NCBI GenBank assembly: GCA_900169235.1
Contig: FWCC01000409.1
Location: forward strand, 1-41,570
Length of the DNA: 41,570 nucleotides
Reading direction: 5' to 3'
Source: Zarea fungicola
Taxonomy: Eukaryota > Ascomycota > Sordariomycetes > Hypocreales > Cordycipitaceae
Both the position numbers and the translations under genes were made by a program. The notes below the pieces were generated by a model. It had not been told where the DNA came from. It searched no databases and saw only the letters and a program-made list of their open reading frames with translations. The stretch's first letter is position 1. Each line of letters opens with the position of its first letter. Shown one piece after another: positions 7,785 to 40,752 of this stretch.

Positions 7785-9118
7785 GATGGGCGTCGTGACA
7801 AGGAGCAAGGTCAATGATGTTGATTGCGTGGGATTGGAGAATAAGAGGAGGGGCAGTGAAGGTGAGATGAGACTGGGAGGCTGTTGGAATATAAATCATG
7901 CGCAAATGCAAACGGGGGGAACCAATGCCCGCGATTGTTGCACGGTCGGCAATTGAACGTATGGAGGGGCTGCCGTTTATGATGGGAATGGTGGGGCAGA
8001 TGGCGATTTCGGTTCTCAAGGCCATCGAGCGCATCGGCCTTTGTGCCGCGCTGGTTTGGATGGAATTATTTGGTGGTGTGTGTTTTGCGCATTTAGCCGC
8101 TCTAATTACCGATCCAGTCAAGGTACGTGGGGGCTCTTATTATTTAATATTAGGTACCTAGTATATCAAGCTGCCTCTGGGACACGTTTTAGCTGCTCAG
8201 TCAGTGAGTGGTAGTAATAGTGGTATATGGACAGGCAGGTTAGTCCTCCGAACTTGTTCGTCATTTGATAGCCGGTGGCGCCCTGGTTGGGGAAAGCCGC
8301 AGAGGCCAGGAGGGATTCTGGGGGGCTACAGCGGGGTAGCCCCTGTAAGGCCACCCAATACAGCAAACCTCGGCGAATGGGGTGCCAATCGGGTGGGGAA
8401 GACTTGGCCTGTCAAGGTCTCAAAGGTCTCATCGGCTACTGGTGGAAGAATAAGCCTGCTTTCTCGAGGCACATTCTTTGCCTGACCACCGGCTTCCCGA
8501 AGATTTGGTCCGTCACTCCGGAGTGCAGAAACCGTAGCGGTAATTAACTCAAGACTGAATTGCCCGTGGGGGTACGCCCTACCTTATATAGCCGTTTCCG
8601 CCAAGTGCATTAATAACCGTCGAGTCAGATCTTGGTACACGCCAGTCTCTTCCCTACCTACCCTGCATACCCGGGAGCCAGAATCATGCCAGCCCTAGAT
8701 GCCTTTGGTCGTCGCGGTTCGAATCATGACCGAGTTCTTTCTTTCTTACGTATGAGGCAACGTAAATGTTCCGAGATCAGTCAATCAATCTCCATCCTAG
8801 TAGCTACGAGTCAGGGAGGCGCACATCGTGGACGCAGGTGGAATCAACCACTTCTTAAGAGTGGACGGTGGTAATAACGAAACTACTGGCCATCTTTACA
8901 GTTCAAAGTAGAGGCTTCTAATTTCTTTCATGTGGACAAAATTTAAAAATCGAAATCTTGCATTCATCCTAGATAGCTACTGTTACCAGCTAAACCCAAA
9001 TGGTGGGTTTGTATGTCAGGACAATCCAATCTTCTTGGCGGCTCCTCTAATCGCACACAATATCAGAACAAAATCATTTGCAAAAGAGAAGGCGAAAAAA
9101 AATAAACAAAGTGCGCAC
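7785..9118. other. Intergenic, 1.3 kb
   Basis: This holds the dehydrogenase promoter (next to 7784) and the 3' flank of the secreted-protein gene. Short open frames on both strands lack plausible starts, splice structure or recognisable domains. I see no RNA gene and nothing else I can support. Confidence 0.4.
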
Positions 9119-22502: not shown

Positions 22503-24704
22503 CTACATATTTTCAAAATCCAGCGTCATCATCCAATTATAGTCAATCATCAAGTCGTCCGAGCTGAAAAGAAGATCCATTTCTCCGCTTGTTCCATCAG
22601 TATTTAAAAACACTTCTTCGTCTGCCATGTTCCTTGCACGCTCTACAGCGGCAGGCGTGGCTTTTCGAGCTAAGAAAGCCTAAATTAGCAACTCGTTATA
22701 GTTACTTCTGTATTATGGATGCGCAGCTTCCTGGCATGTAATGGCTTGTCCCCTGGCACTTACACGGATGGTTGCTTCTGCCAGTAGCGAAATTAGTCTG
22801 ACCACCAAATTCCTTTCGCCACCACCAGAAACAGTCAAAAGCTGCGCTCATAGATAATCTCGTTCGGACCTGACTATAAAGTGGATCGACAGATTCACCA
22901 GCGTCCGTCCTGAATATTTTCTCACTGTGCCACAGTTGGCCGAGTATTGATGCACCGCGAGCACTCAAATCATTGTTTTGTAAGGACAGATTTCGAAGTG
23001 CCATGATTGCCGCGAAATATGCCTTTTGGCCATGCTCCAAATTAATATGGGCGGCCAGCTCACTGCGGCGGATCCTTAGTATTGATAACGCTGCTAGCAT
23101 GAGCCTGCTGGCCCCAAATGGAAAATCTTGCATTGCTTGGCCGTCCAGCCCGTCCGTTGATGTACCGCTCAGTGTATCGCAGGCCAAGGTAAACAAGCAA
23201 ATGAAGATGTCTGGTCTGCGAACACTGTGGTGAGCTAGGAAATTATATGCCAAGATATGCAAGCGGTAAGCGTGCAGATACAGTTTGTCTGACAGAGATT
23301 AGCAGGGAAGTTTTTCGAGGAGTCTCGTCGCGGAGTCCGCCATTACCAATGTCGGTTGGAGCTCTGGGTGATATTTCCAGCAGCTCCGAGTCAAAATAGC
23401 TGATGAGTGAGACTATGGTATTGCTCTGCCGGTTGCTGGTGTGTTCCATTTCCTTGCTTAACGCAGCAGTTGCACGCATCATTATCTCATGGAGGCGGGA
23501 TCGAAAGCTAGCACGAGTCAATAGCTCCGAAACCTGCGCCTCGTCTGCGTCCGCGTTGGTATTTGGAAGATTCATGCCGCCCAAAGCCAGTGGCGCGATT
23601 CCATCACGCAGTGAGATGCTATACCACGTGTTATCCATTGCACAACTTGGCATTCATTGGCAGTGCCAACGTACCTGTAGTAAACCTCGCAGCATACTCG
23701 CCAAAGCAACGCACGTCGCACTGCTTCTGAAGTGTCTGCATTAATTGCCGTCCGCGTAAAGTCTTGCCCAATTCCAAATATATGCAAGCCAACCTGTCTT
23801 GAAAAGTGCAACGCGGCACCAGATAGGACAAGGCTGACATCTCGATACATGGTGTTCATCGGCACTGGCCACATTGCCAGAAGTAGCAGACCTTGGATAG
23901 TGAGGAGGGGATAAGAGCGAGATTCAAGAGCTAAAAATGCCATGGCGTTCAATTTAGGCGCCAGTACGCCCAAGAGTGTCGGATCTTTCGCGTAATATCT
24001 GCTGCCAACGTAGACTATGGTCCAGAACAAGAATGGGCATTTTTGGTGATAGTCATCAGGGGTCATGGATGGTTCGATCGTTGGCAAAAAGTTGGGCGCA
24101 TATATAGTAGAAAATCTTCGTCATGTTAGTCACATAAAGTGAAGGAATAAAATACACTGACCTAACGAAGCAGTCGTAGATTGTCGAGCTAGCAATTTCT
24201 TGGCCTTCGAAATGTTGTGATGAGCAGCCATCTTCGTCTGGCAAGACAATTTCTGTACTGTTTTTCGCTACTGATAATCTAGGGGACGTCACACTATCAA
24301 GTACCAATGAAGTCAAACCGGTAGTCGGTTCACTACTCTGGGGCGGTAGCGGTGGCAGAGGAGGCTGCCTGTTCGTCTCACAATCTATTGGTCGCACAGG
24401 CGAGCCTCGACTGGATGCTCCATTATCCAACTGCTCGGAAGCCAATCCGCCCCGTGCCGCCTCTAGCTCTTTTTGCAGTTGCGCTTTGGTCTTGCGGGCT
24501 GCCGATGATTGCGAGATTTGGCAATCCAGCCCCATTCGGCGACATCTCCCACATACCCGCGGTGGCTCAGCATCGCATTTAACCTACGGCAGGTCAGATT
24601 CAATGTACAAACCGTATTAATGGATAATTTTGACATACTTTTTGTATTCTACATTCTGTACAGGCTGGCTGGCGTCGCCGTCGCTGCTGCTCTGGGGCCA
24701 TCAT
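22503..24704 (-). CDS. Zn2Cys6 transcription factor, probable cluster regulator
   Basis: Six exons (24639-24704, 24162-24583, 23675-24115, 23347-23618, 22764-23288 and 22503-22669) give 630 aa. The zinc cluster is split by intron 1: C15-X2-C18-X6-C25-X7-C33-X2-C36-X6-C43, preceded by a basic QQRRRRQ. A short coiled coil follows (AQLQKELEAA). The middle region from about 163 (RFSTIYAPNFLP, SPFLFW-like KCPFLFWTIVYVGSRYY) is the fungal-specific regulatory domain of the Zn2Cys6 family. The acidic, Met-rich C-terminus (DLLFSSDDLMIDYNWMMTL) resembles an activation tail. It lies at the edge of the aconitase/lyase/decarboxylase/NRPS block with only 463 bp to the aconitase-like gene. Its own promoter carries the GCCGA/TCGGC elements seen upstream of other cluster genes, which suggests autoregulation. 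All splice junctions keep frame. Confidence 0.87.
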
Positions 24705-24725
24705 CTTTGAAGAGTTGCCGGTGTT

Positions 24726-24755
24726 GCCGAAGCGGTCGCAAGAGCAAGCTTCGGC
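24726..24755 (-). promoter_or_regulatory. GCCGAAGC / GCTTCGGC dyad at the regulator gene
   Basis: A perfect 8-bp inverted repeat, GCCGAAGC (24726-24733) and GCTTCGGC (24748-24755), separated by 14 bp and 22-51 bp upstream of the ATG. CGG-containing dyads are the usual targets of Zn2Cys6 dimers. Similar GCCGA/TCGGC dyads lie upstream of the lyase/aconitase pair and the decarboxylase. Confidence 0.5.
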
Positions 24756-24768
24756 CTGCGAGAGACAC

Positions 24769-24791
24769 GCCGAACTAGCCGATCATGCCGA
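24769..24791 (-). promoter_or_regulatory. Three TCGGC units at exact 9-bp spacing
   Basis: GCCGA occurs on the plus strand at 24769, 24778 and 24787, i.e. TCGGC-N4 repeated three times on the gene strand. The same TCGGC-N4 phasing, four times, is found upstream of the PEBP gene (30103-30134). A candidate tandem binding site for one regulator. Confidence 0.45.
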
Positions 24792-25167
24792 TCGTACAGT
24801 GCGCCTCTTATCAAGGGTTGACATCCACACTGTTTTACCGACGCGCTTGGCCATTCGCGGCCTATTTGGCAAATGTCTTAGTTGACGGCAGTTTGCAGAG
24901 CAACTTGAAGAAAGAGCTCCCATGTACTTCTGTCTATGTATTCGAATTATTGAGCTGCAAGAAACCTTGGCCTGGACGCTACAGGAACTGGCAGTCTCTC
25001 AGTGGGTTCACTAGAATAAAAATGTAACAACGCGGTGCTGATCATGGGAGTCAATGAAATTATGCCGAGAGAGGTGAGCCTCGAAATAATAAAACCAGAC
25101 TTATCTTGATTTGAGGTGTGCAAAGTAGGAGAGTGAGAGTACATAGTTTCCAATTCGCGAAGGCTAT

Positions 25168-28160
25168 TTACCAAACTAATGTCGGATCCGCCGACTCCTG
25201 CAAAGGTTTCTTAGGAGGCTTTGAGCCTGCCATCCCGTTTTTACAGAGAATTTTGAATATTTCCTTGCCATATTTTTTGAACGCTGGCGTAACTCCCCCA
25301 ACATCAACAAGAGACTTCTCAATTTCGCTCAACGAGAAATCAAATTTTCGGCCTGCTACTTGTACAAGGTTGCGGGCAAGATCAATTTGAATGCCCTCAC
25401 CATCGACAGCGGCGTCAAAAAAGTCTCTGTCTGTTATCGTGATCCCAATCATCCCAAGGCTTGGTTGATTGCGGCTATAAATGAATGCAAACGATTCTGC
25501 AATAACGCATTTTACTCCGCATCCTAGTCGAGTATGTTAGCTTACGTTGACAGGACCAATCTCAATAAATTTTGACGATTACCAAGTAAAGCCAAGACAG
25601 CTTGCTCGCGCGATGACCCGCATCCAAACGCTTTGCCAGCGACAACTACATCATAGCCATCTTTAACGCGTTGTCGAAAAGCCGGGTTGGTAAACTCCAG
25701 ACAGTGCGACCCCAGAGCTTCATTCGTTCGAGACGTGACCAGAAACTGGGCGGGTGCGAGCTACAATGTGCTCGATTAGTGATCCGCTCGTCGTGAAATT
25801 AAAAAAAAAAAAATGAAACGAACCGCGTCTGTATCCACGAAATCGCCAAGCCTCTGGATCTTGCCAGAAATTGCTCGTTTGGCTGCCTCTGCGACCGAGC
25901 CATCAGCTATCGATGACATCTTTTTGCCTGCGGAAATTGTTTCAACTTCTTCAAGAGCTCTCTCAAGTCTTGCTTCCAAGTCCGAGCCTTCTTTGTCAGG
26001 TCGAGAGTGGTCTGCTGGATGCACATAAACCGGCTGACTTGCAGCGTCGAACCCATCCCTCCAGATTGAGCCGCGACTTTTCAGGGCTTGCCACCTTGCC
26101 GATGGAATCTTGTCAATAAGAGACTGCGGGTCTGTAATCTTCATACTAAACGATGAAGCTGCAACGGTCGCTGCGGATGCGAGATGTCCAATTGAACCTT
26201 GAATTCCAAGCAAATTGGCAAATCAGTGTCTTGTATCTGCAAAAAGTAGGACACGTCACATACCTTTGCCCATCCTGTTCTCAAAATTTCGATTCTGTGA
26301 AGAAAGCCACACCTCCCCTGGTTTTGCAGCATCTGCTGACATGCCAACGCAGTAGCTGCATCCAGGGATGCCAACTTCAAACCCTGCGTCTCTATAAATT
26401 GCTGCTAGTCCCGATTTTTCAAGATTATCGAGAATTGGACGAGATCCCGGGACCATTTTTTTTGTTTTCCCGTCATTTACAGGCATCATTCCGTTCAGCA
26501 GACCTTGTTCGAGTACAAGAGCCCCAAGGATAATGTCCTCTTCGGCAGTTGTGCATGCACCGATGAAACAGCCGTCCAGGGGCAGACCAACCATGTCAGT
26601 GACGGCGACGACATCATCGGGGTTTGGATACTTGGCCACAAAAGATGATACCATTGAGAGATCAATTTCAAATGTCACTGCATAGGTAGCATTTTCATCG
26701 GGGCACAAGTAGATTGATGCTTCTCTGTGTCTTGCAAGCCGTCGGCTGTCAATGAATGCCTTTGTAATGTGATCAGGAACAAAAATTCCTGTAACACCGC
26801 CAAACTCCTACACCCTCTATGTTAGCTAATAGGTAAGATGGAAGTTTAGCTTTGTTGGTACTTGCAGTTGTCATATTCGCAATAGCAAATCTTGCGTCCG
26901 GTGAAAGATAGGTCAGACCCGGGCCAGTATACTCGACAATGCGATCTGCAGCAACTGTGTTTCGCTTCAACTGTTGTAAAACGTATAGTATAATATCCTT
27001 TCCTCCAACACCAGGAGCGGGACGCCCATTGAATCTGATGTTAATTACCTCCGGTATTTTGAACCAAATCTCACCAGTGATGAGCCCCATTGTAACATCC
27101 GCAGCCCCAAGACCAATAGAGAGACAGCCGTTGGCGCCGGACGAGCAAGTATGCGAATCAGATCCAATAATAAACATCCCAGGTTGTGCACGCTCTCGGA
27201 AGAACTCGGTATGCATAATTGTGTACTGGTAAGTCCTGACTGTTAGCCCTGCCAACAGAACAGTTTGAGGAAAACTTTACTTACATTCATGCCTTGATAG
27301 TCTGTCATTTTGAAAACCTTTCGGGCGTTTTCAGACGATTCGATCAGTTTCTTGACAATTGGGGAATGGTTGACTCTAGGATCCACAACATGGTCTCCTG
27401 CGAGCCAGAATCGATCATTGCGAAAGATTCCAGGTTGACCAACGTCATCATAAGTCTTTTCCATGCCCTAGAATTCAGTTATTAAGGATGTCCACATAGA
27501 TTAGAGCAGACCTGTATTATCCATTGAGATTCCACGTACGGACCAAGATGCCTCTGATGCCAAAATCCAGTCAATTGATACCAAGATCGTATCGCCTGCC
27601 CGAGCGAGGCCTTTGGTGCTTCGCGAGTGTATCGCGAAGATCTTTTCGGCTGTGTTCATAGGCGGCCGGCCAGTTGGTACAGTTGGCTGTGTCTTGGGCG
27701 CCGTCACTCCGTTACGGTCCTCAGAGTTCAAGGACTCGAGCCCTACAAAACCGACAAATTAGCGGAGATGATGATTCAGGTCGTGGCTCCGACGTACAGG
27801 CGGCCAGCAGCAAGTTTACTTCTTGTATAATCACAGCTGTGTTGCTGCTTCCTTGGTCTAGGCCTAGGCCTCCATGGCTGGGTGATGTCGAACAGATTTC
27901 CGATACGTGTTCAAATACACTGCCTTCTCGCATAAACCCACCTAACGACAGTTGGTGAGAAACTGTTGATAATAGGTCCAATATGTGGTGTCCACCTTGG
28001 TAAGTGGTTAGCAATGTACGTGGTCAAGGTGCGAAAGTTGCTCACTTGGAGCAGCGAAGGAAGCTAATTTTACTCCCCGGGAATCTTCCAATAAATTAAG
28101 CCAGTCCTGTAGGACTATTGAGCCATCATCCAGGTCTATGTTAGTAGTTTCGTCAGCCAT
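25168..28160 (-). CDS. Aconitase / 3-isopropylmalate-isomerase-type hydro-lyase, large and small domains fused
   Basis: Nine exons (28046-28160, 27798-27995, 27540-27742, 27285-27467, 26866-27225, 26264-26807, 25824-26197, 25583-25760 and 25168-25523) give 836 aa with frame kept throughout. Residues from about 133 ([12 protein letters not shown]) form the aconitase catalytic region: [24 protein letters not shown] (254-266), and the 4Fe-4S ligands Cys438 (FIGACTTA), Cys503 and Cys506 (PGCSYC). The CX2C pair resembles isopropylmalate isomerase and homoaconitase rather than mitochondrial aconitase. The swivelling small domain follows, with [13 protein letters not shown] for substrate binding. 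It should dehydrate/rehydrate a 2- or 3-hydroxy di- or tricarboxylate, possibly supplying a cis-aconitate-like substrate to the decarboxylase at 31387. Residues 1-132 are an extra segment; Met133 is an alternative start. Intron 5 appears to be GC-AG (26808-26865). It is divergent from the lyase gene. Confidence 0.85.
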
Positions 28161-28478
28161 CAGAAATAGGCAAATCCGCTGAAAAGGTGGCGATTCTTGT
28201 TAATAATAGCAAGGGAAAGCAAAACAGCCAATTATTCTTTCTTGAATTTCAGTTACTTCTGGATTTTTTTATCCTTATATGGTTATTGGTGCAAAGGGTG
28301 AGGGAAGTACCGAACTGTCGAAGTTGGAAGACTGTGCCGAAGTCCGCCATGATTCGGCATCCTGGCGCATGCGTGTCTTCCTCTACGTAGAGCAAGCGAG
28401 AAATTCAAGGAACTTACTTAAACTGCCTCAATATCTCAAAAGAAAAACCGGACTGCAGCGTCTTAAATTTGTTGTAAC
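28161..28478. promoter_or_regulatory. Bidirectional promoter, aconitase-like / lyase genes
   Basis: 318 bp between the two ATGs, so the genes probably share control. It holds a 7-bp dyad TGCCGAA (28335-28341) / TTCGGCA (28353-28359) with an 11-bp spacer enclosing GTCCGCC. That lies 120 bp from the lyase ATG and about 175 bp from the aconitase ATG. The dyad and its GTCCG core resemble the site at 33022-33047 upstream of the decarboxylase. Confidence 0.55.
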
Positions 28479-29520
28479 ATGCCACTAGCAATGACTGGCC
28501 GATTTTCTGCAGCTGAACCCAACTCTCCCGTCGCGAGGCTTCGTGCCGAACTTTCTGCGGCAGACAACATAGTCGTTGGACCTGGAGTTTATGATGGACT
28601 TACAGCACGCATTGCCCTTAAAGCCGGATTCGAATGTCTTTACATGGTCAGTTTCAAGTCCGGGTAACTAGTTGTATTTGCTGACATGAAAGTCATCAGA
28701 CCGGCGCGGGTACGACCATGTCCAGACTAGGCATGCCTGATATTGGCTTAGCAACGCTCAACGACATGAGAGATAATGCGGCAATGATTGCAGGTCTTGA
28801 ACCTTCTGTTCCGCTTGTCGCGGATGCCGACACTGGATATGGAGGTAGCAAAATCTACACGCGCTTGCAGGACACACCACTAACGCTGGGAACTTTGTAG
28901 GTCCAGTTATGGTTGGACGAACAGTGAAGCAATATATCCGGGCCGGGGTCGCAGCATTACACTTGGAGGACCAAGTCCACTCAAAGCGATGCGGCCATTT
29001 GCTGAACAAGCAGCTTGTCGACAACGCTGAATTTATCTCTCGAATTCGTGCCGCAGTAATGGCAAGGGAGGAATCCAAAGGTGATATTGTAATTATCGCT
29101 CGTACCGATGCTTTACAAGAACTAGGTTACGAAGCTGCAAGAGATCGGCTAAAGGAGGCGATCGCTGTTGGTGCTGATGCCGCTTTCCTGGAAGGGCTGA
29201 CAAGCATTGAGCAGGGCCGACAGATCTGCCAGGACTTGGCCCCGTCCCCAGTTCTATTCAATTGTGTGCCTGGCGGCCTGTCTCCAACACTATCAGTGCA
29301 AGAGGCAAAAGATCTTGGCTTCAAGATGATTATATTTCCTGGCCTCTTTCTAAGCCCGGTAACTGTTGCTGCCACTGCGGCCGCCACGACGCTGAAGTCT
29401 CAAGGCTCTGTCGAAAATAGTGGAGGTTCGCCCAAGACGATCTTTGAGATCTGTGGGATTCGTAAGCTCATGGAGTTTGATGGAGCTGCTGGAGGCAAAA
29501 TGTATGAAAGGGACGTTTGA
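28479..29520 (+). CDS. Isocitrate lyase/PEP-mutase superfamily lyase (methylisocitrate-lyase-like)
   Basis: Exons 28479-28646, 28700-28844 and 28901-29520 give 310 aa; introns are 53 and 56 nt with CTGAC and CTAAC branches. The TIM-barrel landmarks of the ICL/PEPM superfamily are present: GVYDGLTARIA, TGAGTTMSRLG, the metal-binding DADTGYGG (98-105), HLEDQ (125-129), and the catalytic-cysteine loop KRCGH with Cys135. That loop marks the lyase/hydrolase branch (2-methylisocitrate, 2,3-dimethylmalate, oxaloacetate) and not PEP mutase, which lacks it. The later part has VPGGLSPTLS and IIFPGLF. It should cleave or form a C-C bond beside a carboxylate, releasing pyruvate, glyoxylate or oxalate depending on substrate. 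Length fits the short ICL/PEPM enzymes rather than true isocitrate lyase (over 500 aa). A second ATG at 28491 is possible. Confidence 0.87.
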
Positions 29521-30379
29521 TAGAATTCTCAGACAGACTGAAATTGAAGCTCGATGTTTTAAATTAATAAAAAAGATATGCATATTTCAGCAGTTAAAAA
29601 TTGAGTTCTGGTGGCGAAAGTGTCGTTGAGTATAACATTGCGACATCACTAGGTTAGTGGCTGCTGCTCGCTACTTCTTCAAACTGTCAGAAAAGCAAAA
29701 CTCCAAGGCTCATCATTCTAGGATACAATATACTTTGCTGAGAAATTTGCTTGCTGGAACCGAGGGACAGTCACCATAAAACAGGCCATGTCTATAGAAG
29801 GGCGTGTCTACCAAGGCAATTCAACGTTGCTCGTTCAGCTACACCGGGAAACGTGTGCAAGTACTAGGCACTGTGCTGTGGGGGAATGGCCGCTAGAAAG
29901 CCACTTCACAATTACGTTCATGCGATCTCGCCAGCCTCACCTGTCGCCGCAATGTTTAACACGCCAAATAATATCGAAGGGCTACTAGCTAGAGGAGGAG
30001 TAATACAGAGATTTAATGGAAATTATAATATTTACGGACTTCAGCGGCGCCTGAGTCAAAGCCGCTCAGCCTCCTGTATGTACCGTGGACTTTCACCTCA
30101 CATCGGCGCCATCGGCCACTTCGGCCACCTCGGCGAAATCAACCACATTAACTAGTTTATGACCCTCACTTTACTGGTACGCAAAGAAAGTTCAGGATAA
30201 GACATCCAATTCCTGCCAGTACGAAATTATCTGTACGTACAAGTGGAACCGTTGCCGATTTTCCGGCCAGTTACTCAAATACTGCAACGCAAAGGAAATT
30301 CTTCCTGGCACTCTCATACTCCAATCGCATCCAACTCCCGGAGAACATATTTGAGCCGCTTGAAACAGAAATCAATAAA
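29521..30379. promoter_or_regulatory. Intergenic with PEBP-gene promoter
   Basis: 860 bp with no supported gene. Near the middle is an AGCGGC (30043-30048) / GCCGCT (30061-30066) inverted repeat, followed by the 9-bp tandem units at 30102-30137. A CGG-N14-CCG pair lies at 30339-30358 just before the PEBP ATG. Confidence 0.45.
30102..30137 (+). promoter_or_regulatory. Four tandem 9-bp units with TCGGC core
   Basis: The units read ATCGGCGCC, ATCGGCCAC, TTCGGCCAC and CTCGGCGAA, so TCGGC recurs at 30103, 30112, 30121 and 30130. They lie about 243 bp upstream of the PEBP ATG. The same TCGGC-N4 phasing occurs in the cluster regulator's promoter in the same orientation relative to the gene. Confidence 0.5.
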
Positions 30380-30988
30380 ATGGCAATTGATGCGCAGCTT
30401 AGTGGCGCTCTGGAAGCCCTTCGCGAACAAAAGATCGCCGTCTTGGGAATAAAATTTAACAGCACTGAAATCAATCCTGGTGATTTTGTCAACAAGGGAG
30501 GTATGTCGGCACTTTTCATCCCTGCCCTCACTGTATTACTGACTGTCATGGTTGCTAACTTGAATACGCTCACAGATGCGAGGACCACTCCAGTAGTCTC
30601 GTTTGACACAGCAAACCCGGCACAGAAGTACATCGTGCTCTGTCTTGATCCTGACGCACCCCACCCGTCTGCAAGCTTCTTGCTCAGTCCTATCCTGCAT
30701 TGGCTGCAAGGTAATCTCCAGATTCCATCCGATGGGAGCAAAGTGTTTGCTGCGACAGAAGCCGTCATGGCTGGGTATAGGCCGCCGAACCCGCCCGGCT
30801 TTAGCCCACCACACAGATACTTGTTTCTGCTGTATGAGCAACCAGACACGCTAAATCTCCAGCAACATATACCAAAGGACGGAGAGCAGCTGGGCCTTTG
30901 GCCACGTCTAAAGTACGATCATCACCAATTGCTGCAAAAGATGGGCTTGGGCGAGCCTGTGGCAGCAAATTACTTTATTAGCAGCTAA
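30380..30988 (+). CDS. Phosphatidylethanolamine-binding (PEBP) family protein
   Basis: Exons 30380-30500 and 30576-30988 give 177 aa. The 75-nt intron (GTATGT...CACAG, branch GCTAAC) is a multiple of three without a stop, so an unspliced frame is also open; splicing is chosen because it joins VNKG to DARTTPVVSF as expected in the fold. PEBP hallmarks are the anion-pocket motif CLDPDAPHPS and the PPHRYLFLLYEQ segment of the second conserved region; LHWLQGNL matches the region between. No signal peptide, so cytosolic. PEBPs bind phospholipids or carboxylates/phosphates. In fungal maleidride clusters PEBP-like proteins assist assembly of carboxylate-rich monomers, so a member beside aconitase-, PrpD- and lyase-type genes fits a direct role in this pathway. 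That role is inference. Confidence 0.87.
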   Translation: MAIDAQLSGALEALREQKIAVLGIKFNSTEINPGDFVNKGGMSALFIPALTVLLTVMVANLNTLTDARTTPVVSFDTANPAQKYIVLCLDPDAPHPSASFLLSPILHWLQGNLQIPSDGSKVFAATEAVMAGYRPPNPPGFSPPHRYLFLLYEQPDTLNLQQHIPKDGEQLGLWPRLKYDHHQLLQKMGLGEPVAANYFISS

Positions 30989-31386
30989 ATTACCACTAAT
31001 AACAAAGTTGTACTAGTCCATGGCGTCGGAGGCGTGATTCAATAGCTGCCTCCACAGCCAAGTTTGTACCCAAGGTTGTTCGACTACGATGGTCTTTAAC
31101 TACACTTGATCACTAGCCTAAGGACGAGCCTTGGAAACACTCTCGGCTTTCTGTCCAGTGCAAATAAATTGTAACTGAGAAAAATCATTACTATTTTACT
31201 ATTTTACTAGTTGCCTGTTAAAATTACAAGAGAGCCCTATCCTTTATAATTTTGTTGCATCTTTTTTGGCCTGGCGGCGCGGCCACAATAGCACTGTCCC
31301 ACTTACATCCCCTTGCATGTGGCCGAGAACTACAAAACAAGGAAAATATTTCTATCAAACCAAATAATATTGTATTCATGTAAAAC
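30989..31386. other. Intergenic between convergent PEBP and decarboxylase genes
   Basis: 398 bp of 3' flanks; AT-rich with T-runs. Nothing else seen. Confidence 0.4.
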
Positions 31387-32847
31387 TTAAGTGATTACAT
31401 TATTTGTTTTCCCAGACAAAAGCTGGCTCAGCGAGCTGATATCGTCACAAGTGTCCAGCCTTAAAACAATCCTTTCAATCGCTTCAGCTCTTTTGTCATC
31501 AATTACTCCCTTTGTCAAAGCCCTCCATTTTTTCACAATTTCCTCATTTGACAGTGGTGGTAAAACGCCTCTCGCTGCTAAGCGTTCGCATACCAGCGGA
31601 TCTGTGCTTCCCTTGAACCAAATACTGACCCGTGTGCGCATTTTGTCTGTGAAATCTGTCATCACACACTCAGTTTTCGCCACGAGGTCCCATATCCCAT
31701 CTCTACACAACTCGGCCGAGGAGAACTGCGCAGGAAAAACTGCATTATCGACAAGATAAGTCGCTGCGCAATATGCATTATTCATTTGGGCGCCGGTTGC
31801 CGTAATGGGTCGCTCTGCTTTCCATCCGCCATGCTCAAAGGCCGGTTTACTAAGTTCAATGAGAATCCTATCAATGCATCCCAGCTGACTCATTTCCTCT
31901 GGGTGCTGGCCTCGTAAATCAATTAGGCAGTCAATTGTGTTATGTGTACCGGCCATGCTCGCGTACGGCTTAACACACACGCTCTTCATTTGCCAGATCT
32001 CGCCAAGGTCCTTGGAAATCTCCTCGACGACATATGGGGGGTCCATACCATTGCCGCTGCTGAACTGCTTCAAGAAACCTCCATATTCTCGTTCAAAGAC
32101 TCTCTTGATCCCGGCATAGCCACTTCGTGCGAGAAAGGCGCCAAGGACCCCGTTGCGGGCGGCAAACCCGTGCTGCATACGTTTTACTTCAGACTCGAAC
32201 TGGGCCGACATCAAGCCACCAGCCTGAGTGCACGCGATCCCCAAAGCATCCTCGATCGCGCCAGGAGGGAGACGCAGCAGCCTGGAAACTGCCGCCGCAG
32301 AGGCAGATGGACCAAATACTGCACCAGAGTGCCATCCCATGGACAGCACGTGAGAGCCACGCAATCCAAGGCCAACTCGCGGCCCAACCTCCAATCCTGC
32401 AACATATGCTAGAAGAAATTCTTCGCCGCTGAACTTTTTAGGCTCAGTAGCAGAGCTTCCTTCATGCTCAGCGGCTGCTAACAAGGCGGGTAGCAGTAGA
32501 CTGTTCGAATGGAGTGGAGCACCGGCATGCCAGTCATCGAGTTCAAATCCTTGAATGAAAGAGCTGTTCAGCATGGCAGCATTGAGGGCAGTCATGCGAC
32601 GCTCGTGGCCAATAATGTTGGCCGTTCCAGAGGTGGGCTCCAATGCAAAGAGCGCCGCGGCAGCTCTCTCCGACCATGGTAAGTGTGCGCCAACCAGCGC
32701 ACAAGCAATTCCATCGAGTACCAGATACTTTGCTCGTGTCTGAAGATCTTGCGGGATGGACTTCCATGATAGCGAAGATACCCAAGTGCAAAGCAAGCCT
32801 GTAGGACTCGCTGGATCGGAGCATTCCTGTGTTGGCGATTGAGCCAT
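31387..32847 (-). CDS. MmgE/PrpD-family, cis-aconitate decarboxylase-like
   Basis: Single exon, 486 aa, the length of fungal cis-aconitate decarboxylases (about 490). The sequence strongly resembles that group: RAKYLVLDGIACALVGA (38-54), ELDDWH (102-107), GWHSGAVFG (171-179), ALGIACTQAGGLMSAQ (201-216) and KRMQHGFAARNG (222-233). Residues placed like the active-site set of known cis-aconitate decarboxylases are kept: Asp104/105, His107 or His113, His173, Lys222 and His302. The expected reaction is cis-aconitate (or an alkylated analogue) to itaconate plus CO2. PrpD dehydratase (2-methylcitrate) is the other family option but fits less well. No targeting sequence is obvious. The neighbouring aconitase-like gene could supply the substrate. 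A TATAAGG-like element lies on the minus strand near 32970, and the dyad at 33022-33047 is a candidate activator site. Confidence 0.87.
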   Translation of the reverse strand: MAQSPTQECSDPASPTGLLCTWVSSLSWKSIPQDLQTRAKYLVLDGIACALVGAHLPWSERAAAALFALEPTSGTANIIGHERRMTALNAAMLNSSFIQGFELDDWHAGAPLHSNSLLLPALLAAAEHEGSSATEPKKFSGEEFLLAYVAGLEVGPRVGLGLRGSHVLSMGWHSGAVFGPSASAAAVSRLLRLPPGAIEDALGIACTQAGGLMSAQFESEVKRMQHGFAARNGVLGAFLARSGYAGIKRVFEREYGGFLKQFSSGNGMDPPYVVEEISKDLGEIWQMKSVCVKPYASMAGTHNTIDCLIDLRGQHPEEMSQLGCIDRILIELSKPAFEHGGWKAERPITATGAQMNNAYCAATYLVDNAVFPAQFSSAELCRDGIWDLVAKTECVMTDFTDKMRTRVSIWFKGSTDPLVCERLAARGVLPPLSNEEIVKKWRALTKGVIDDKRAEAIERIVLRLDTCDDISSLSQLLSGKTNNVIT

Positions 32848-33021
32848 TTTGCTTTTGGGTCGTCAGAAACTAGAAAAAAAATTGTAAATTTTGATTAAAT
32901 ATGTAAGGTTAAAAATCCACATGAGTTTTGAAAGTCGTGATGGACAGCCTGGATAGTATCTATTTAACCTTATAAGTTATTGGCGCTCTGTTTACGCCAA
33001 CGAGGCTTTCCGACGAGAGCC

Positions 33022-33047
33022 TTGCCGAGTCCGGCGACCTTCGGCTT
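33022..33047 (-). promoter_or_regulatory. GCCGA / TCGGC dyad upstream of the decarboxylase gene
   Basis: GCCGA (33024-33028) and TCGGC (33041-33045) flank a GTCCGGCGACCT core, 175-200 bp upstream of the decarboxylase ATG. The left half and GTCCG core match the site at 28335-28359 in the lyase/aconitase promoter apart from one inserted A. On the gene strand TCGCC and TCGGC are also 9 bp apart. Confidence 0.5.
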
Positions 33048-34041
33048 GGGTTTTCTAGAACGCTTGACACTTTGTCGTGTTAACTAGTTACTTGCCGATT
33101 GCTATGGCCTCCCCGGCTCCATCCATACCGAACTGGTCCCTGTGGTTCTTGCCACTACCAACCATTTGTATTGCATCCATCTCCAATATCAAGTTCAATC
33201 GGTGCATCCATATTTTCGTCTGGCTTCCATTTAACCGAGACAATCAGGCAATCTATTCGTGGTATTATAAGCCAGTCAGCTGGCGGGCGGGGGCAGAGAG
33301 TACCGTTGATTTTGTCACGGACCGGCCGGCAGAGGCGCCGGAACTATCCGTAGCTGAGGCTTTAGAACTGCGCTGGAAGGCATTCATAGGCTAGGTTTAT
33401 TCTACGATCAGTGGGTAGTTTATCACTAAATGGATGCCTCTGACCCCGTCATCACAGCAAAGCCTCCCACTGCACCTAATAACTTTCAGCAATAACAAGT
33501 CTCGTTCCCAACAAGGACAGCATTTGCCTGTTGTAACCTTTTTGGGCCGACCGGTGGACCTGTTACTCTTCCGACTGGCTAGGGTGGCCACGGCCTCTAC
33601 AGGTTGGCAAACTTGAAACTACCAGTGGCCCGTCGCAATGGGGATTTATTGAATGTGGCAATGGTACGATGCACAGTGAGCGTCCCACAGTTTCCACCTC
33701 ACGGAATCTACCAGCAGCTTACCTTGCCCAGAGCCTTGGTACTCCAGGACAAGCCTTTGCCAAGATGCTGGTCGGCGGTCATACGCAATTCTTCAACCCA
33801 CCGAGGTGACCCATTCTGCGCTCCGCCCACTGATTTTAGCTGTCATGCACACCGATTCCATAGTTAAGGATTCCCGTTGGCACAAAGGCGGCCCATCCTG
33901 GTAGGCTGACCGAAGCCCGATCTTCCGTCTTTTCTTCTCCCGCGGCGCACATGCACAGCTGGCGTCATCCTCAAAATAGTAGCAAAGCCCTCCTGCCGAA
34001 TTATTAGTCTGCCCTGCATGTTATCATGCTTGTGCCGGGTC

Positions 34042-34116
34042 GTGCCTGAGCCAGACCCCACGGGGCCGGGAACCGTGTCCCAATTCAGGCACAACGCCGG
34101 ACAGAGCCCCGTCCGG
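34042..34116. promoter_or_regulatory. Nested inverted repeats upstream of the FABP gene
   Basis: Outer arms GTGCCTGA (34042-34049) / TCAGGCAC (34085-34092) enclose inner arms CACGG (34059-34063) / CCGTG (34073-34077). Next to them is CCGGAC (34097-34102) / GTCCGG (34111-34116). Three dyads in 75 bp, about 200-275 bp before the ATG, suggest a multi-protein binding region or a hairpin-forming segment. Confidence 0.45.
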
Positions 34117-34201
34117 GCGCCACTCCGTCGCCGAGAAAAAACAGCCTTCCCACATGTGAATAGCATGTGAAGGTTGGCTACGGGAAGAATCTGGGGTGAG
34201 C

Positions 34202-34208
34202 TATAAAG
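34202..34208 (+). promoter_or_regulatory. TATA box of the FABP gene
   Basis: TATAAAG, 109 nt upstream of the ATG at 34317, followed by a C/T-rich leader. This is a good core promoter and fits the strong codon bias of the gene. Confidence 0.5.
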
Positions 34209-34316
34209 ACACGACGATATCTGGGGTAAAAGAAAAGGACGTGGCTTGCTATTCTCCTATACTGTTCTTCTCTGTTCATACTTGCTCCAGCCAAAGTTAC
34301 ATACAACACCACAATC

Positions 34317-34780
34317 ATGCAGGACATTGTCGTTGGCAAGTACCGTCTCACCAAGTCGGAGAACTTTGACAACTTTCTCTCTGAGATTGGTGTGTTTTTA
34401 CCCTGCCCAAAATTTCGTGGTTTCTTTACCTCTTCTAACCCATTTCTGCAGGTCTTGGCTACATCAAGCGCAAGCTTGCCCAGTCCACCAACCCCGAAAT
34501 CACAATCACCCGCGACGGCGACAAGTACACCATGATCACCTCCTCTGCCCTCAGCACCACCCAGATCACCTTCGCCCTTGGCGAGGAGTTCAAGGAGGAT
34601 CGCCAGGACGGCGTTTCCGTTACCAGCCTTGTTACCGCCGATGGCAACACTTGGACCCAAACCCAGAAGCCCGGTGATGGCAAGGACCTTCTCATCGTCC
34701 GCGAGTTTACCGACAGCGAGCTCAAGGTCACGTCCACCATCAACAAAGTTACCGCCAACCGTGTTTACGAGCGCATCTAG
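34317..34780 (+). CDS. Cytosolic fatty-acid-binding protein (FABP/iLBP family)
   Basis: Exons 34317-34389 and 34452-34780 (intron 62 nt) give 133 aa, the usual iLBP length. The family landmarks are in order: GKYRLTKSENFDNFLSEIG at the N-terminus (strand A and helix I), GYIKRKLA, ITRDGDKYTM, LGEEFKEDRQDG (strands E-F), NTWTQTQK and the C-terminal REF...NRVYERI, whose R-x-Y carboxylate-binding pair is typical of FABPs. It should bind fatty acids or another small hydrophobic carboxylate inside a ten-strand barrel in the cytosol. The codons are strongly biased (mostly C-ending), unlike the cluster genes around it, which points to high expression or a different history. The family is best known from animals; fungal members seem patchy to me. 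A role for the cluster product, such as binding or transport, is possible but unproven. Confidence 0.9.
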
Positions 34781-35311
34781 ACGAGCACGGAGGGAATTAT
34801 TGTAAATAATATGAATAATGAACTGTATAAATACCTTTGCACTGCATCTGGGCGGAGCCAATATCTGTCTCGTAAATTTGTACCAACGTATTTAATCTAT
34901 CTGTCGATGTAGCTGCATCGGCGGCAGGGGTCCTTGTCAATTTAGCCTCGCTGCATGTAAATCCGCTTCCTGGAGAACCCTGCCTGTTTTGCTAGCTTTG
35001 TACTTAGTTGTCTAGTTTCAATACTGCATACAGCCCGATCCTGCCGAGGCGGACACGTTAAATTACACTTGCATGCTTTTAGCATATGACATCTCGAGGT
35101 GTGTGCAGCACTTCATCGACATCAACCAAGCTCATTCTTTAGGAGACGCATGAGGCAAGGAAACGTACTTGAAAACATCAAACTTATTCTTCTACTACTA
35201 AATCGTCGCAACAATTCTTTGACTCTGACTAATTCCAAACTTTTTTTTGACATCTTGCGCCTCTAATCCCCGAGCTAGCTCCTACGCGTATATCAGGCTA
35301 TGATACCATTT
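34781..35311. other. Intergenic between convergent genes
   Basis: 530 bp of 3' flanks (FABP plus, unknown minus). No supported feature. Confidence 0.4.
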
Positions 35312-35836
35312 TTACTCGTCGAGTTCACGGTGTGACCTTTTTCTCCTGCGCTTGACAACATAACCATCCTCTCCCTCGACGAACGGGCCTGCATTTTCAT
35401 TTTCCTTTGCCGAAGAGGGTGCGGCTCCTTCAGAGCTCGGGCCACCTACATTCATCCAGTTAAAGCTCTTGGAACAACGGGATTTCGACTCCTGCTTGTG
35501 TTCCAGTTCTTTGGCGTACTTGGTAGCCAACTCTGTAGATTTGGCGGCATGCTGTTTGTAGGTCCCCACGCTCGGCAGCAGCGGGTGCTTGGCCCAGGTA
35601 CCGTTCTTCCACTGGACGACTATGTGAATGAGTTCCATCAGAGCACGACTGCGCCCTGCCGAGAGTCCTTTTGTAAATTCCTGGGAGTGTCGAATCTCAT
35701 AAGCAATAGTTTCCAGTCGGGAAACTGACAGCACATCGTCATGGCTAAGAGTGAATGTATGCCTCTCTTTGGTGAAGGGGCATCGGAAAGCAAACGTGAT
35801 CTTCGGGACCTCTTTATCTGTGTCCGAACCGACCAT
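35312..35836 (-). CDS. Small protein of unknown function, probably nuclear
   Basis: Single exon, 174 aa, from the ATG at 35836, chosen for its strong context (GCACCATGG). The frame is open to another start near 36010 (232 aa), but that extra part looks like leader sequence. No domain is recognised. Residues 1-55 look like a small folded unit (ITFAFRCPFTKERHTFTLSH), 60-105 are helical, and the C-terminus is polar and ends with a dense basic stretch (KRRRKRSHRELDE), a likely nuclear localisation signal. It lies between the FABP and NRPS genes. Whether it belongs to the cluster is unknown; it could be a small regulator or an unrelated neighbour. Confidence 0.55.
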   Translation of the reverse strand: MVGSDTDKEVPKITFAFRCPFTKERHTFTLSHDDVLSVSRLETIAYEIRHSQEFTKGLSAGRSRALMELIHIVVQWKNGTWAKHPLLPSVGTYKQHAAKSTELATKYAKELEHKQESKSRCSKSFNWMNVGGPSSEGAAPSSAKENENAGPFVEGEDGYVVKRRRKRSHRELDE

Positions 35837-36405
35837 GGTGCAAGAGTTGTGAAATATTTTCTGCGCGACACTTGTTAGCTGTGTGACGAACAAAACTGGT
35901 GAATGTAGAATAGCTGTATCATACGAGTAAAGGAAGCAAGGAAGAAGATTTCTTGAAGCCTGGAAGCCGTGCGCAGTCTTGAGGGCAAAGCTCTTCTCTG
36001 CAACCAGCACTATTTGGGGTCTTGAAATCGGGGGGAAATTTAAGAAAAGACGTGAACTTGACAGAGAAGCGTTATATTCCTCTCACACTGTGCCGAGCCT
36101 CACTTTATAGCGTTATAGTCCATAAAAGTGAGGGCCATCACGACAAACGGCAAAGAGAGTGAAGCGGCGCTAAACCTATTGAAGGCCACAGTCGCGAGGC
36201 GGAAGAGCAACAGTCAAAGAAACTCTACTTGAGCTACACATTGGCAAATTGAAAAGCTTTTAAAACTTTTCTTCGAGGTCTACAATTGTTCCAAACTCTA
36301 TGGCATTCAATAAAAATACGAATCTATATTCTCGCTCTATGCTTGTATCAATCGTGCGCAGGAAGGCGTAGGAAGTCTTATAAATCATTTCTCGCCGAAT
36401 CAAAC
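35837..36405. other. Intergenic: promoter of the small unknown and NRPS 3' flank
   Basis: 569 bp between two minus-strand genes. No coding frame supported beyond the possible N-terminal extension of the small protein to 36010. Confidence 0.4.
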
Positions 36406-39400
36406 TTATGCCAAAGGATCAAACACATCATCTGGGTTGCAAGCGACGTCATGCATAGCTTGATCAAATGTCATCAACAGTCCTTTGACCCAGTCCTTGG
36501 TCATGAATTCGTACCCAGGCCATGTCTCACTGTAAGTCAATCGCAGCGAGAGAGGGGCGTCATCGGCTTCATGTTCAGGCCAAATCTCCATGAGAACCGG
36601 AACCAACGCGTTCGTTTCTCTCCAGCTAATCAGCTTGTCATGGGTTCGCTCAAATACGGGGAACCCAGCCGCCGACAACTCGGTCGTGGTAGGATCAGTC
36701 TTTGGAAGCACCTGCAAAATGACACTGCTGTCGAATCGACGAGTCGTGCGCGCAAATTGGACGTTGGGGCACGGCACTTCCATGTGCGGCAGGTTTTCCA
36801 CGTGCTGGGTCGAGACATCCGTGCAAAGCTCGCGGTGCGTGCGGCGCTGCGACTTGCCAAAATTGACTCGTGTGAGCGTCCCTACGACCATCATGGCAAA
36901 GACGTCGACCGAGTCCGCAGTCGGCCGGCCATGGTATCCTCCTGCGAACTGAATGTCCAGGTCCTTGTCCAGCTTCTGCTGCTGCAGCTGCTGCGGTTCC
37001 ACCACGGTCTTGGCCAGGGTCATGGCCCAGGCTGCTTGTACCACTGCGGTTGGTGATTGGATACCATGACGACGAGCATTGCTGATGAGCTGCTCAAGAT
37101 TGAGCAGTCCCCTCACAGACTGGCTGGCATATCCTGTGCCTACGCCCACATATTCAACCTGAGAGCTGCCTTGCAGATTTGTCAACTCCAATTTTCTGCT
37201 GCCAGTCTTGAAGGCGGTAACTCCTCCAAGCTTCATTGACCAGTAAAGGGTGGACGACAGCCAATCCGCGCTGTAGTGCCTTTCCACTGGAGCCATGACT
37301 CCGTACTTTCCTTCGGCACCAGCCGGCTCTTTGCCATGGTACACCTGGAAAATATCCTTGGCCAGCTTCTGGAAGCTCATGCCGTCGTATATTGCGTGCA
37401 GTGCGGAGAATATCAATACACGGTGCTTCAAATCTGCTGACTGAACAATGGTTGTGACTCCACAAAGGCTGTTTAATCCGAGAGTGCCTTCTGCCGCCTG
37501 CTGTGCATGGATGATAGTTTGCTGCCACAAACTCTTAGGATCAGTACTATACTCGCTCACAGTCGTTTTAACGACGCTATGTACTGCAGCAGGCGAATCG
37601 GTCGACAAAATGCAGATCGCAAAAGGGGCCAACGGATGCTCGACCTCCACAAACATGGAACGAAAGGCATCATACTTCTTCAGGGTTGTGCGGATACTCT
37701 GCTCGAGACGGCCAATGTCAATGTGCTCGGGGACTTTGTAGAGATAATGCTCAGTCCAGGGCTTCGAGATCCCAAGTGTCTCAATTTCAGTCAAGAGGGC
37801 AAACCCTCGAGTGTGAAGGGCGGTTGCTGGCAGGATTTGCGCAATCTCTTCAGTGGGAAGTCCAAGCTTGTTGACACATTGTTGGCGGCAGAATGCAGAG
37901 AAATGCTTGAGCTTTTGCGAAAACGTAAATTCGAGCAGCTGCTCCTCATCTTCAAGCTCCATGATCACCTCGTCATCGTCTTCAGCAAGAGACTCAGCTG
38001 CGGCTTCCGCAGCACGTTTGTTTACATCGATAACACTTTGGACAAGGTCGTCCAAGGTATTACTGGCTAATACCAAGTCCATGCCAATGTGCTCAATGCC
38101 TAGCGATCGAGCTTCTTGCAGAAACTTCATCGACCTCAAACTGTCAACGCCAATCGACTGTAATGAAACTGACGTATCGGAAAGCGTATCGTGCCCCAAC
38201 ACCAATTCCAAGGCAAATTTGACATTCGCGGTCACACTCTCGACATTGCCAAAGTCCAGTGCCACCGGGCCATTGCGGTCGTCAGCTGGTGCTTGGGCTT
38301 TGGCAGTATCCGAAGAACCAAATCGCTCTTTAGCGTCCAGCTGCAGCGTTTTCCGGTCCGTCTTACCGCTGGTTATGCGAGGGATTGCAGCCATAATGAC
38401 GTATTCCACGGGTCTCATCCAAGCCGGCAGACCCTTCTCAGCAGAGGCACGGCACTCTGCAATAACGCGTTGCTGATACTCGCTCTCATTGGTACCGTTG
38501 CTTTCAGTGTCTTTGTTCAATCCAATGTAAGCAATGAGGAAACTTCCATCCAGAACGACTGTGGCAATCTCCTTGACTTGGGGGACTTGATCAATGATGG
38601 TGGCCTCAATTTCTCCCAGCTCGACACGTCTAGCATTTAGCTTGACCTGTTCCATGCTTAGGCGACCTTGGAGCTCTAGCTGAGGTACACCTTCGTCGGA
38701 CCACACGATGCGCCCCTTGTCACCTGTTCTGTAGGCGCGGTCAAAGCCCAATCCAGTAACAAAGGCAGCTGCAGATTCCACGGGACGGTTGTGGTAGCCG
38801 TAGCCGACAAGAGGCCCAGCAAGCACAACTTCTCCGGAGAGCCCCATTGGCATCTCCACAAGCTCATCTGTGCGGTGGTTGTCCACAATGATGATTGAGC
38901 AGCAGCTAAGAGCACGGCCTGCAATAGACCCTCTGTAGCCAACGCGAACGACAGAGGCGGTGTTGTTGAAGGTAGCCTCGGTCGGTCCATAGACGTTGAT
39001 CAGTCGCTTTGGAGGCGTGCAGGCTTTTGAATCGCTGGAAAAGTTATCGATGGAGTACTTGGTCAGAGCCTCTCCTCCACTGATTATGTTCCTCAGTGTA
39101 GGCACATTTTTCGGCCTGATGAGCGTAGCCATGGTCGCCACGCATAGCAAGGTGTTGACATTGAAAAAGGTTATGGCCGCTTCGAGGTTGGAGAGTAGCA
39201 GCTGGCGATCAGCAACACACAATGTTCCACCATAGCTCAGCGTGAGGAAAATTTCCAGTATAGTGAGATCAAAGGTTGGCATGCCGAATTGAAGCCAGCG
39301 CAAGTCTGCTCCTGAAGGGAAAGGCTCAAAGGCTTCTGCGTGGACACTGATAGCGGTAGCCGCCATACTATGTCCAATCAAAACAGCCTTGGGCTTTCCA

Positions 39401-40752
39401 GTGGAACCACTTGTATACAAGACATAGGCCAAATCTTCTGGCGTAGGGCCGTCTCTTTGTAGGGTAGTTGAGGAAGATAGTTCCTCGGACAGGGAGGGGG
39501 CTGCCTGGTTGTGCTGCCATTTGGGGGTTCCATCACTAATGTCAACCCAGATGATGCTATCCAGTTTCGCTCTTGCTTCGGCTGGAAGCGCATCAAGATT
39601 GATACCAGGGAACGGAACAGTCCCTCTGCCTAGCACCACAGATGCTTCGGCATCCTCCAATATATCAAGCAGACGGCTTGGTGGGGCATCCAAGGGAAGC
39701 GGGCAAAACGCCATGCCAGCTTTCATCACACCCATAACACCAATATAAAACTCCAATGACCCTGGAAGAAAGAGAGGAACGACCCTCTTGTTTCGGAATA
39801 CTGACTTCCAGTTCGAGGATAAATGATTCTCGGCCACAGCCAACTCCGTTGCCAGTCGGTCCGCCTTTTGGTTCATATCGCCATATGTCAGGCACCGAGG
39901 GCTGTCCAGAGAGTTTCCAGCATATTCGACTGCGACTGCATTGGGGGTTTGAGCAGCTCGTCTCTCAAAGGCACTGTGAAGGAGCAGTGGTAAATCCTCA
40001 TGGGCAGACGTTCCAATATCGACTTTAAGTGGCGGTGCCCGTTGGGTTGTGGAAGGTGGGTATCCGAGGGCGGCCGGCTTGGTTACTTTACGATTTTGTT
40101 TTTGTGACATGTATGCAGCCGACAGGTCCGCCAGATGAGAAGCTGCTGCGGCAGCACCATGTGCTTTATCAAAATTTAGGGTGAGGTCGGCGGTCAAATT
40201 GTCGGATGATGAGATGTACAGTACAAAGGACTAAAGGGGCCATGTTAGTGAATGCTGACAGCAAGCACAGCGTTTGCGAACCCTTGAAGGAACAAAACTT
40301 GCCTGTCGCAGGGGACCATCTTGTCCCTTTGTAGCAACTTCATGAGGTGCATATAGTCTAATAGCGAAATCGAGGCACTCTTCGTTGGTGGCGTTTGACT
40401 CCTCAATGGTGAGTGTTGTGCTCTCAGAGTCAAAGGTGTGCGGCTTGTTAGTAACCAAAGCCGACGCAGTCACAAGTCGTCTTTCCACTTGCGGTTCACT
40501 GCCTTCAGTAGTGGATAGATATTCAGCCACAAATGCAACATTGTCTTGTTCTACAACTGCCGCGACAAAAGTTGCAAATGCTTTGAGAATTTCTTGGCGA
40601 TCGGCGGAGACGGGGACAGCAGGCAAAAATACACTGTGAAACTGTACAGAAGACGACTCAGCTGTATTCCCCGGACCAGAGCCACGCGACCATAAGTCAT
40701 AGAACGGCAGCTCTGTCTTGGGAACCATGGCGGAGCTGGAACCAGCGTTCAT
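36406..40752 (-). CDS. Monomodular nonribosomal peptide synthetase, A-T-C
   Basis: Exons 40303-40752 and 36406-40230 give 1424 aa. The 72-nt intron is GC-AG (CAG|GCAAGT, branch CTAAC, TTTAG) and joins Q150 to S151 in phase 0. Residues 1-220 are an N-terminal region of unclear fold. The adenylation domain (about 234-780) has LYTSGSTGKPKAV (A3), FDLTILEIF with Asp471 (the residue that binds the alpha-amino group of amino-acid substrates), NVYGPTEA (A5), YRTGD (A7), GRLSMEQVKLNARRVELGE (A8) and Lys773 (A10). The carrier domain has GVDSL with the phosphopantetheine Ser847. The condensation domain (about 915-1424) has LPATALHTRGF and LHAIYDG (1094-1100): the first His of HHXXXDG is Leu, but the catalytic His1095 and the Asp-Gly remain. 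It should activate one amino acid and join it to a second substrate. There is no thioesterase or reductase, so release is by the C domain. Substrate not predicted. Confidence 0.9.

Follow-up and report, generated by a model that had tools for sequence, protein, structure and literature searches.

Three carboxylate enzymes beside a nonribosomal peptide synthetase gene in Zarea fungicola: a candidate route for the breakdown of branched dicarboxylic acids

The nicotinate fermentation of Eubacterium barkeri reportedly uses a 2,3-dimethylmaleate hydratase (DmdAB) and a 2,3-dimethylmalate lyase, pairing a LeuCD-type aconitase-family hydratase with a lyase of the ICL/PEPM superfamily. The same pairing is found on contig FWCC01000409.1 of the fungus Zarea fungicola (assembly GCA_900169235.1), whose 41,570 nucleotides make up the window analyzed here. 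Between positions 22503 and 40752, genes for both enzymes accompany a gene for an MmgE/PrpD-family enzyme and one for a nonribosomal peptide synthetase (NRPS) with a single adenylation-thiolation-condensation (A-T-C) module. Compared with the DmdAB system, the fungal hydratase has fused subunits, and the MmgE/PrpD enzyme replaces the PrpF-type isomerase. On the NRPS side, SidE of Aspergillus fumigatus is described, in the part of the source consulted, as a fungal NRPS making fumarylalanine, a dicarboxylate-amino acid product (PMC10512231); SidE is bimodular, unlike the window enzyme, and the two are likened by description, not by sequence. With moderate confidence, we read the three carboxylate enzymes, hereafter the trio, as a predicted coenzyme A (CoA)-free route breaking down a branched dicarboxylic acid, and the NRPS as a separate or recently added neighbor. 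A literature search of titles and abstract openings found no fungal cluster with this gene set and no substrate assignment for the trio. Two members of the set recur across ascomycetes and all three co-occur in bacteria; once a substrate is assigned, the set would define a CoA-free route that handles itaconate/citraconate-type acids. The genes at issue are as follows.

25168-28160, minus strand: aconitase-superfamily hydro-lyase, a LeuC-LeuD fusion of 836 aa in 9 exons (spliced model)
28479-29521, plus strand: ICL/PEPM-superfamily lyase, 2,3-dimethylmalate-lyase-like, 310 aa in 3 exons (PEP_mutase 6e-40)
31387-32847, minus strand: MmgE/PrpD-family enzyme, 486 aa, single exon (MmgE_PrpD_N 1.1e-67)
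36406-40752, minus strand: single-module A-T-C NRPS, 1424 aa in 2 exons (AMP-binding 1.9e-51, Condensation 2.6e-11)

The lyase gene and the aconitase-like gene are divergent. Two introns have GC donors (GCAAGT), one in the NRPS gene (40302-40231) and one, of the GC-AG type, in the aconitase-like gene (26865-26808).

Among the 46 PDB sequences compared, the top match of the lyase is the 2,3-dimethylmalate lyase 3fa3 (E 4.6e-94), which we take to come from Aspergillus niger, and the aligned KRCGH motif is retained. At the position where a Ser presumably marks oxaloacetate acetylhydrolase (OAH), the OAH 3lye reads FSFATL, 3fa3 reads FPFAAL, and the window lyase reads FPGLFL; as the marker Ser is replaced by Pro, an identity as OAH was rejected. 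Identity as a phosphoenolpyruvate (PEP) mutase was likewise rejected, the NCBIfam PEP_mutase equivalog giving 73.5 bits against a cut-off of 319.55 with KRCGH present. The top NCBIfam match is prpB, whose cut-off is missed (215.1 vs. 354.4 bits). The first-pass annotation had named an ICL/PEPM lyase; a lyase with KRCGH it is, and on these comparisons it appears closest to 2,3-dimethylmalate lyase, not to PEP mutase. Two further good matches to it, of about 50% identity, lie elsewhere in the genome (contigs C191 and C419).

The aconitase-family enzyme (Pfam Aconitase 2e-73) bears an N-terminal extension of about 125 aa on its LeuC-LeuD fusion, which is common to its fungal relatives. From 7996 scored candidates for this enzyme and 7996 for MmgE, the matches considered are the best 120 of 1481 and the best 120 of 4914, respectively. 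With a 704-aa part of the aconitase-like protein as query, Trichoderma proteins are its best matches (68-69% identity), and its best 120 also take in Daldinia, Aspergillus, Penicillium, and Colletotrichum. Cys 438, 503, and 506, presumably the Fe-S ligands, are invariant in 17 sequences. The LeuD/DmdB model TIGR02087 scores 119.4 bits, above its cut-off of 108.95. The small-subunit loop, which sets the substrate class, reads FLVT in the window, YLVY in the isopropylmalate/citramalate isomerase 3vba, and YLRT in the homoaconitase 2pkp, whose Arg we take as the homoaconitase mark. Because the loop has Val instead of Arg, the predicted substrate points to a dicarboxylate, and the loop favors one with a hydrophobic side group. 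A homoaconitase was rejected on the same residue and on the h_aconitase model (195.6 bits vs. a cut-off of 529.9). The superfamily given at first sight is thus retained, but "aconitase-like" is narrowed: by sequence comparison, the enzyme is of the LeuCD/isopropylmalate isomerase (IPMI) kind, with a loop closer to that of isopropylmalate/citramalate isomerase than to that of homoaconitase.

All 46 sequences compared conserve H113, H173, K222, and K293 of the MmgE/PrpD enzyme. ACOD1 and IDS epimerase tie as the nearest relatives of its predicted fold, the methylcitrate dehydratases being less near. Identity to ACOD1/IRG1, the cis-aconitate decarboxylase, is only 24-25%, and the Thr of ACOD1's DDTWHP aligns to a gap. 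As far as the portion of the source consulted goes, IDS epimerase and methylsuccinate isomerase have a second catalytic Tyr four to five residues before a conserved His (PMC12290011). The window enzyme lacks a Tyr at this site, placed via the His spacing alone: it reads L168 S169 ... H173, with L168 invariant in the 46 sequences. A 2-methylcitrate dehydratase PrpD was rejected, as one PrpD model matched, with 16.5 bits against a cut-off of 950. A second MmgE/PrpD gene, on contig C100, has a better Pfam score than the window gene (302.6 vs. 230.2 bits). In a quick tree of 44 rows rooted on Variovorax (40 of the best 120 MmgE proteins, three bacterial proteins, and the window protein), the pair from Burkholderiales is sister to the remaining 41 rows, and the window protein stands with two database proteins in a group formed by Trichoderma, Cladobotryum, and Lecanicillium.

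In two Burkholderiales, genes of all three families lie next to one another. On a plasmid of Paraburkholderia sp. 22B1P (448618-455527), the order is ICL/PEPM, leuC, leuD, GntR on the opposite strand, MmgE/PrpD, and MFS transporter; in Caballeronia SBC2, tblastn on a region without annotation placed ICL, LeuCD, and MmgE in the same order. The Paraburkholderia run, annotated by family names alone, matches the window in this adjacency but has separate LeuC and LeuD, together with its GntR regulator and MFS transporter; no NRPS is annotated within the 29 kb shown. The Burkholderiales MmgE proteins are 42-44% identical to the window protein (Paraburkholderia 43.9%), and the other plasmid records, in the 25 of 315 considered, reach at most 31%. 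LeuCD and ICL/PEPM genes occur together in four of the six annotated bacterial regions (Paraburkholderia, Pseudoroseomonas, Halalkalicoccus, and Roseomonas), all four with a transporter or transporter-binding-protein gene. Such surroundings suggest that carboxylates would be taken up and degraded. Neither the aconitase alignment nor the lyase picked up relatives in scans of bacterial genomes, so the bacterial context comes from plasmid records alone. On the plasmid of Halalkalicoccus sp. FCH27, a PrpF-domain gene, LeuCD, ICL/PEPM, and MFS and tripartite tricarboxylate transporter genes lie together, a set that resembles the isomerase-hydratase-lyase set of nicotinate fermentation.

Among fungi, homologues of the aconitase-like gene and of the MmgE gene are found in many ascomycetes. 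We compared contig sizes for 38 of the 120 aconitase-like rows, 25 of the 120 MmgE rows, and all 22 rows of NRPS relatives; T. viride, P. variotii, R. emersonii, and E. elasticus, whose rows come from different strains, were left out of the species comparison. The longest contigs of the aconitase-like and MmgE rows are equal in size in 6 of the 17 species compared, and one further pair shares a size of 44728 bases. The equal-size contigs are short in Daldinia bambusicola (81738) and Aspergillus rambellii (97307); several others are megabases long and give little proof of linkage. Locus tags of the two genes are two apart in Torrubiella hemipterigena (VHEMI09954/09956) and three apart in Penicillium bovifimosum (N7515_008141/008144). 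That the three carboxylate enzymes form a set, as first annotated, is supported by the adjacency of their families in two Burkholderiales and by the contigs that two of the three share in other fungi.

The proposed route would have three steps. The MmgE/PrpD enzyme would act, by an enolate mechanism of the type proposed for this family, on an acid with a 1,4-dicarboxylate backbone (cis-aconitate or 2-methyl-cis-aconitate), giving an itaconate/citraconate- or methylitaconate/dimethylmaleate-type acid. The aconitase-family enzyme would then hydrate the double bond of citraconate or dimethylmaleate to yield citramalate or 2,3-dimethylmalate, and the lyase would split the alkylated malate into pyruvate and either acetate or propionate. 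Control of the set may fall to the Zn2Cys6 gene. The proposed substrates, which are citraconate, dimethylmaleate, and the corresponding malates, are drawn from the family and residue comparisons above.

The core motifs FDLTILE, NVYGPTE, GVDSL (carrier), and LHAIYDG of the NRPS agree with the A-T-C assignment; its PP-binding match falls under the Pfam cut-off (18.2 vs. 20.8 bits), with the GVDSL carrier motif present. The genome has at least eight loci of this A-T-C family (C158, which is the window, C429, C163, C172, two on C135, C397, and C190), a lower bound because scores were obtained for 36 of 80 candidates. Closest to the window copy is a paralogue on C135 whose coding sequence is divided between two frames, and the C429 paralogue is 93.8% identical to a Z. 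fungicola protein over 1437 aligned positions. In the flanks of the seven paralogues, a tblastn search run without a positive control found no homologue of seven other window genes at 1e-4; these flanks measure at most 9.9 kb per side, and one side is cut to 5.4 kb (C429) and 1.4 kb (C163) near contig ends. Scoring of 7988 candidates yielded 22 NRPS relatives at E <= 1e-100; ten rows are labeled by species, eight of them from what we take to be Cordycipitaceae. A tree of 30 rows including 21 of these 22 places the window NRPS beside P0241, P0242, and both pieces of the split C135 copy on a branch without named species; the branches of the C429 and C172 copies also contain Cordyceps species and their relatives. 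By its position in this tree, the window's NRPS branch may be lineage-specific. The closest relatives of the window proteins are P0121, P0241, and P0242. Species carrying the NRPS and species carrying the trio barely overlap among the matches listed, and none of the 22 NRPS rows shares a contig size with the 38 aconitase-like rows. Lecanicillium saksenae has both NRPS-family and MmgE proteins, on contigs of unequal size. The NRPS is probably independent of the trio or joined it recently.

Several observations weigh against a breakdown route with an independent NRPS. For the lyase, the OAH 3lye is a close second match (E 8.4e-92), and the stretch GTTMSRLGMPD is more OAH-like. The Burkholderiales LeuC and LeuD are just 29-33% identical to the fungal fusion, and the seven bacterial regions, six of them annotated, were picked from match lists rather than sampled. 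Variovorax has an MmgE gene without ICL or LeuCD nearby, and Tistrella has MmgE and ICL/PEPM with an ABC transporter, without LeuCD. The longest contigs of the aconitase-like and MmgE rows differ in 11 of the 17 fungal species. One MmgE and one NRPS match (P0191 and P0250), both outside the window's own tree branches, share a contig size of 6465, which may reflect linkage elsewhere or chance and is an ambiguous hint of an NRPS-trio link. As a substrate, 2-methyl-cis-aconitate would regenerate propionate, a poor catabolic design. Finally, the PEBP gene, a fatty-acid-binding protein (FABP) gene, and a small gene of the locus are left unexplained.

The locus was initially annotated as a single biosynthetic cluster for an acyl-amino acid-like product. 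Under this scheme, an unsaturated acid from the trio would be coupled to an amino acid by the A-T-C NRPS; besides an acyl-amino acid, a maleimide could result. Points in favor of such a cluster are the close packing of eight genes in 18 kb, among them NRPS, Zn2Cys6, and PEBP genes, the intact NRPS motifs, the possible lineage specificity of the NRPS branch, and the 6465-base coincidence. Farinomalein, a maleimide, is known from Isaria farinosa, according to the part of the source consulted (PMC6412548). The coupling by the NRPS is the part that finds no support, given at least eight NRPS loci in the genome, paralogue flanks empty of the other window genes, and little overlap of carrier species among the matches listed; the bacterial counterpart of the trio, with its transporter gene and no annotated NRPS, also argues against it. 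Within FDLTILE, the Asp is a residue typical of domains that activate amino acids, and an A-T-C order would make the loaded amino acid the donor and not the acylated partner, two points that likewise disfavor this scheme. Maleidride-type clusters carry an alkylcitrate synthase; the maleidride-type logic once invoked finds no backing here, as none of the six citrate-synthase matches in the genome is on this contig, which ends 0.8 kb beyond the NRPS, so that a gene farther out would escape notice. What stands of the single-cluster proposal is the grouping of the three enzymes, with the aconitase-like/MmgE pair as the part of the expected co-occurrence seen in other fungi. On balance, we regard one cluster as somewhat unlikely. 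An unlikely variant would have a bacterial-type branched-dicarboxylate module recruited into a lineage-specific cluster, where the NRPS would join a citraconate/dimethylmaleate-type acid to an amino acid to form a maleimide or acyl-amino acid, and an animal-derived FABP would serve as carrier or self-protection.

PrpD-, aconitase-, and PrpB-like enzymes catalyze the three steps after methylcitrate synthase, and the trio could accordingly be viewed as part of another methylcitrate-type cycle that degrades propionate or alkylcitrates; prpB is moreover the top NCBIfam match of the lyase. However, both the prpB and the PrpD cut-offs are missed, the MmgE fold as predicted is closer to ACOD1/IDS epimerase than to methylcitrate dehydratases, the hydratase loop lacks the homoaconitase Arg, and the separate gene on C100 is the better MmgE/PrpD match, which makes such a cycle quite unlikely. 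A phosphonate pathway of the kind proposed for pantaphos, in which a PEP mutase works together with an IPMI-like dehydratase, would account for the PEP mutase family match next to a LeuCD-like enzyme; the Pantoea hvr route pairs these two families, in the part of the source consulted (PMC7858074). We consider it extremely improbable: the lyase falls far below the PEP mutase cut-off and has the KRCGH lyase motif, and the contig has no HMGL-like (PF00682) or citrate-synthase match that could stand for phosphonomethylmalate synthase. As a caution for annotation, an NRPS gene next to genes labeled PEP mutase, aconitase, and cis-aconitate decarboxylase does not necessarily mark a biosynthetic cluster.

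The four other genes of the 18-kb region are listed below.

22503-24704, minus strand: Zn2Cys6 transcription factor, partial model (stop codon 22503, ATG 24704)
30380-30988, plus strand: PEBP-family protein, 177 aa in 2 exons (PBP, PF01161, 1.7e-14)
34317-34780, plus strand: animal-type fatty-acid-binding protein (iLBP, FABP), 133 aa in 2 exons (Lipocalin 7.4e-13)
35312-35836, minus strand: small uncharacterized protein, 174 aa in one open frame (no confident Pfam match)

All eight genes first annotated between 22503 and 40752 are present, and the families named for them are borne out by Pfam. Seven models are complete without internal stops; that of the regulator, spliced by hand, is partial (Zn_clus 1e-9, Fungal_trans 2.3e-6). 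The window is the whole of contig C158, in a 43.1-Mb assembly of 456 contigs, so any cluster edge past 41570 lies out of view. The FABP gene, located between the MmgE and NRPS genes, had not been named previously. Its best PDB match is 5gge (E 2.9e-32), and a protein scan found it as the only copy in the genome; a lipocalin family scan of the genome missed even this gene, and absence there is uninformative. Its first exon has 73 coding bases, which we take to be the exon 1 size of animal FABP genes, and transfer of the gene from an animal is possible on these sequence grounds. Five more PEBP matches are found in the genome, all on other contigs. The small gene has Tmpp129 (0.035), under the cut-off, as its sole Pfam match.

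To the left of these genes, the first 6000 bases of the window are AT-rich, with 28.5-38.3% GC in 2-kb steps. An open reading frame at 3894-4331 in this part has a weak match to a Psq/Tc5 helix-turn-helix domain and resembles a decayed transposon. Farther right, a D-2-hydroxyacid dehydrogenase gene lies at 6837-7895 on the minus strand, and the stretch 13592-14581 on the same strand is weakly fungal-transcription-factor-like (PF11951, 19.6 bits vs. a cut-off of 21).

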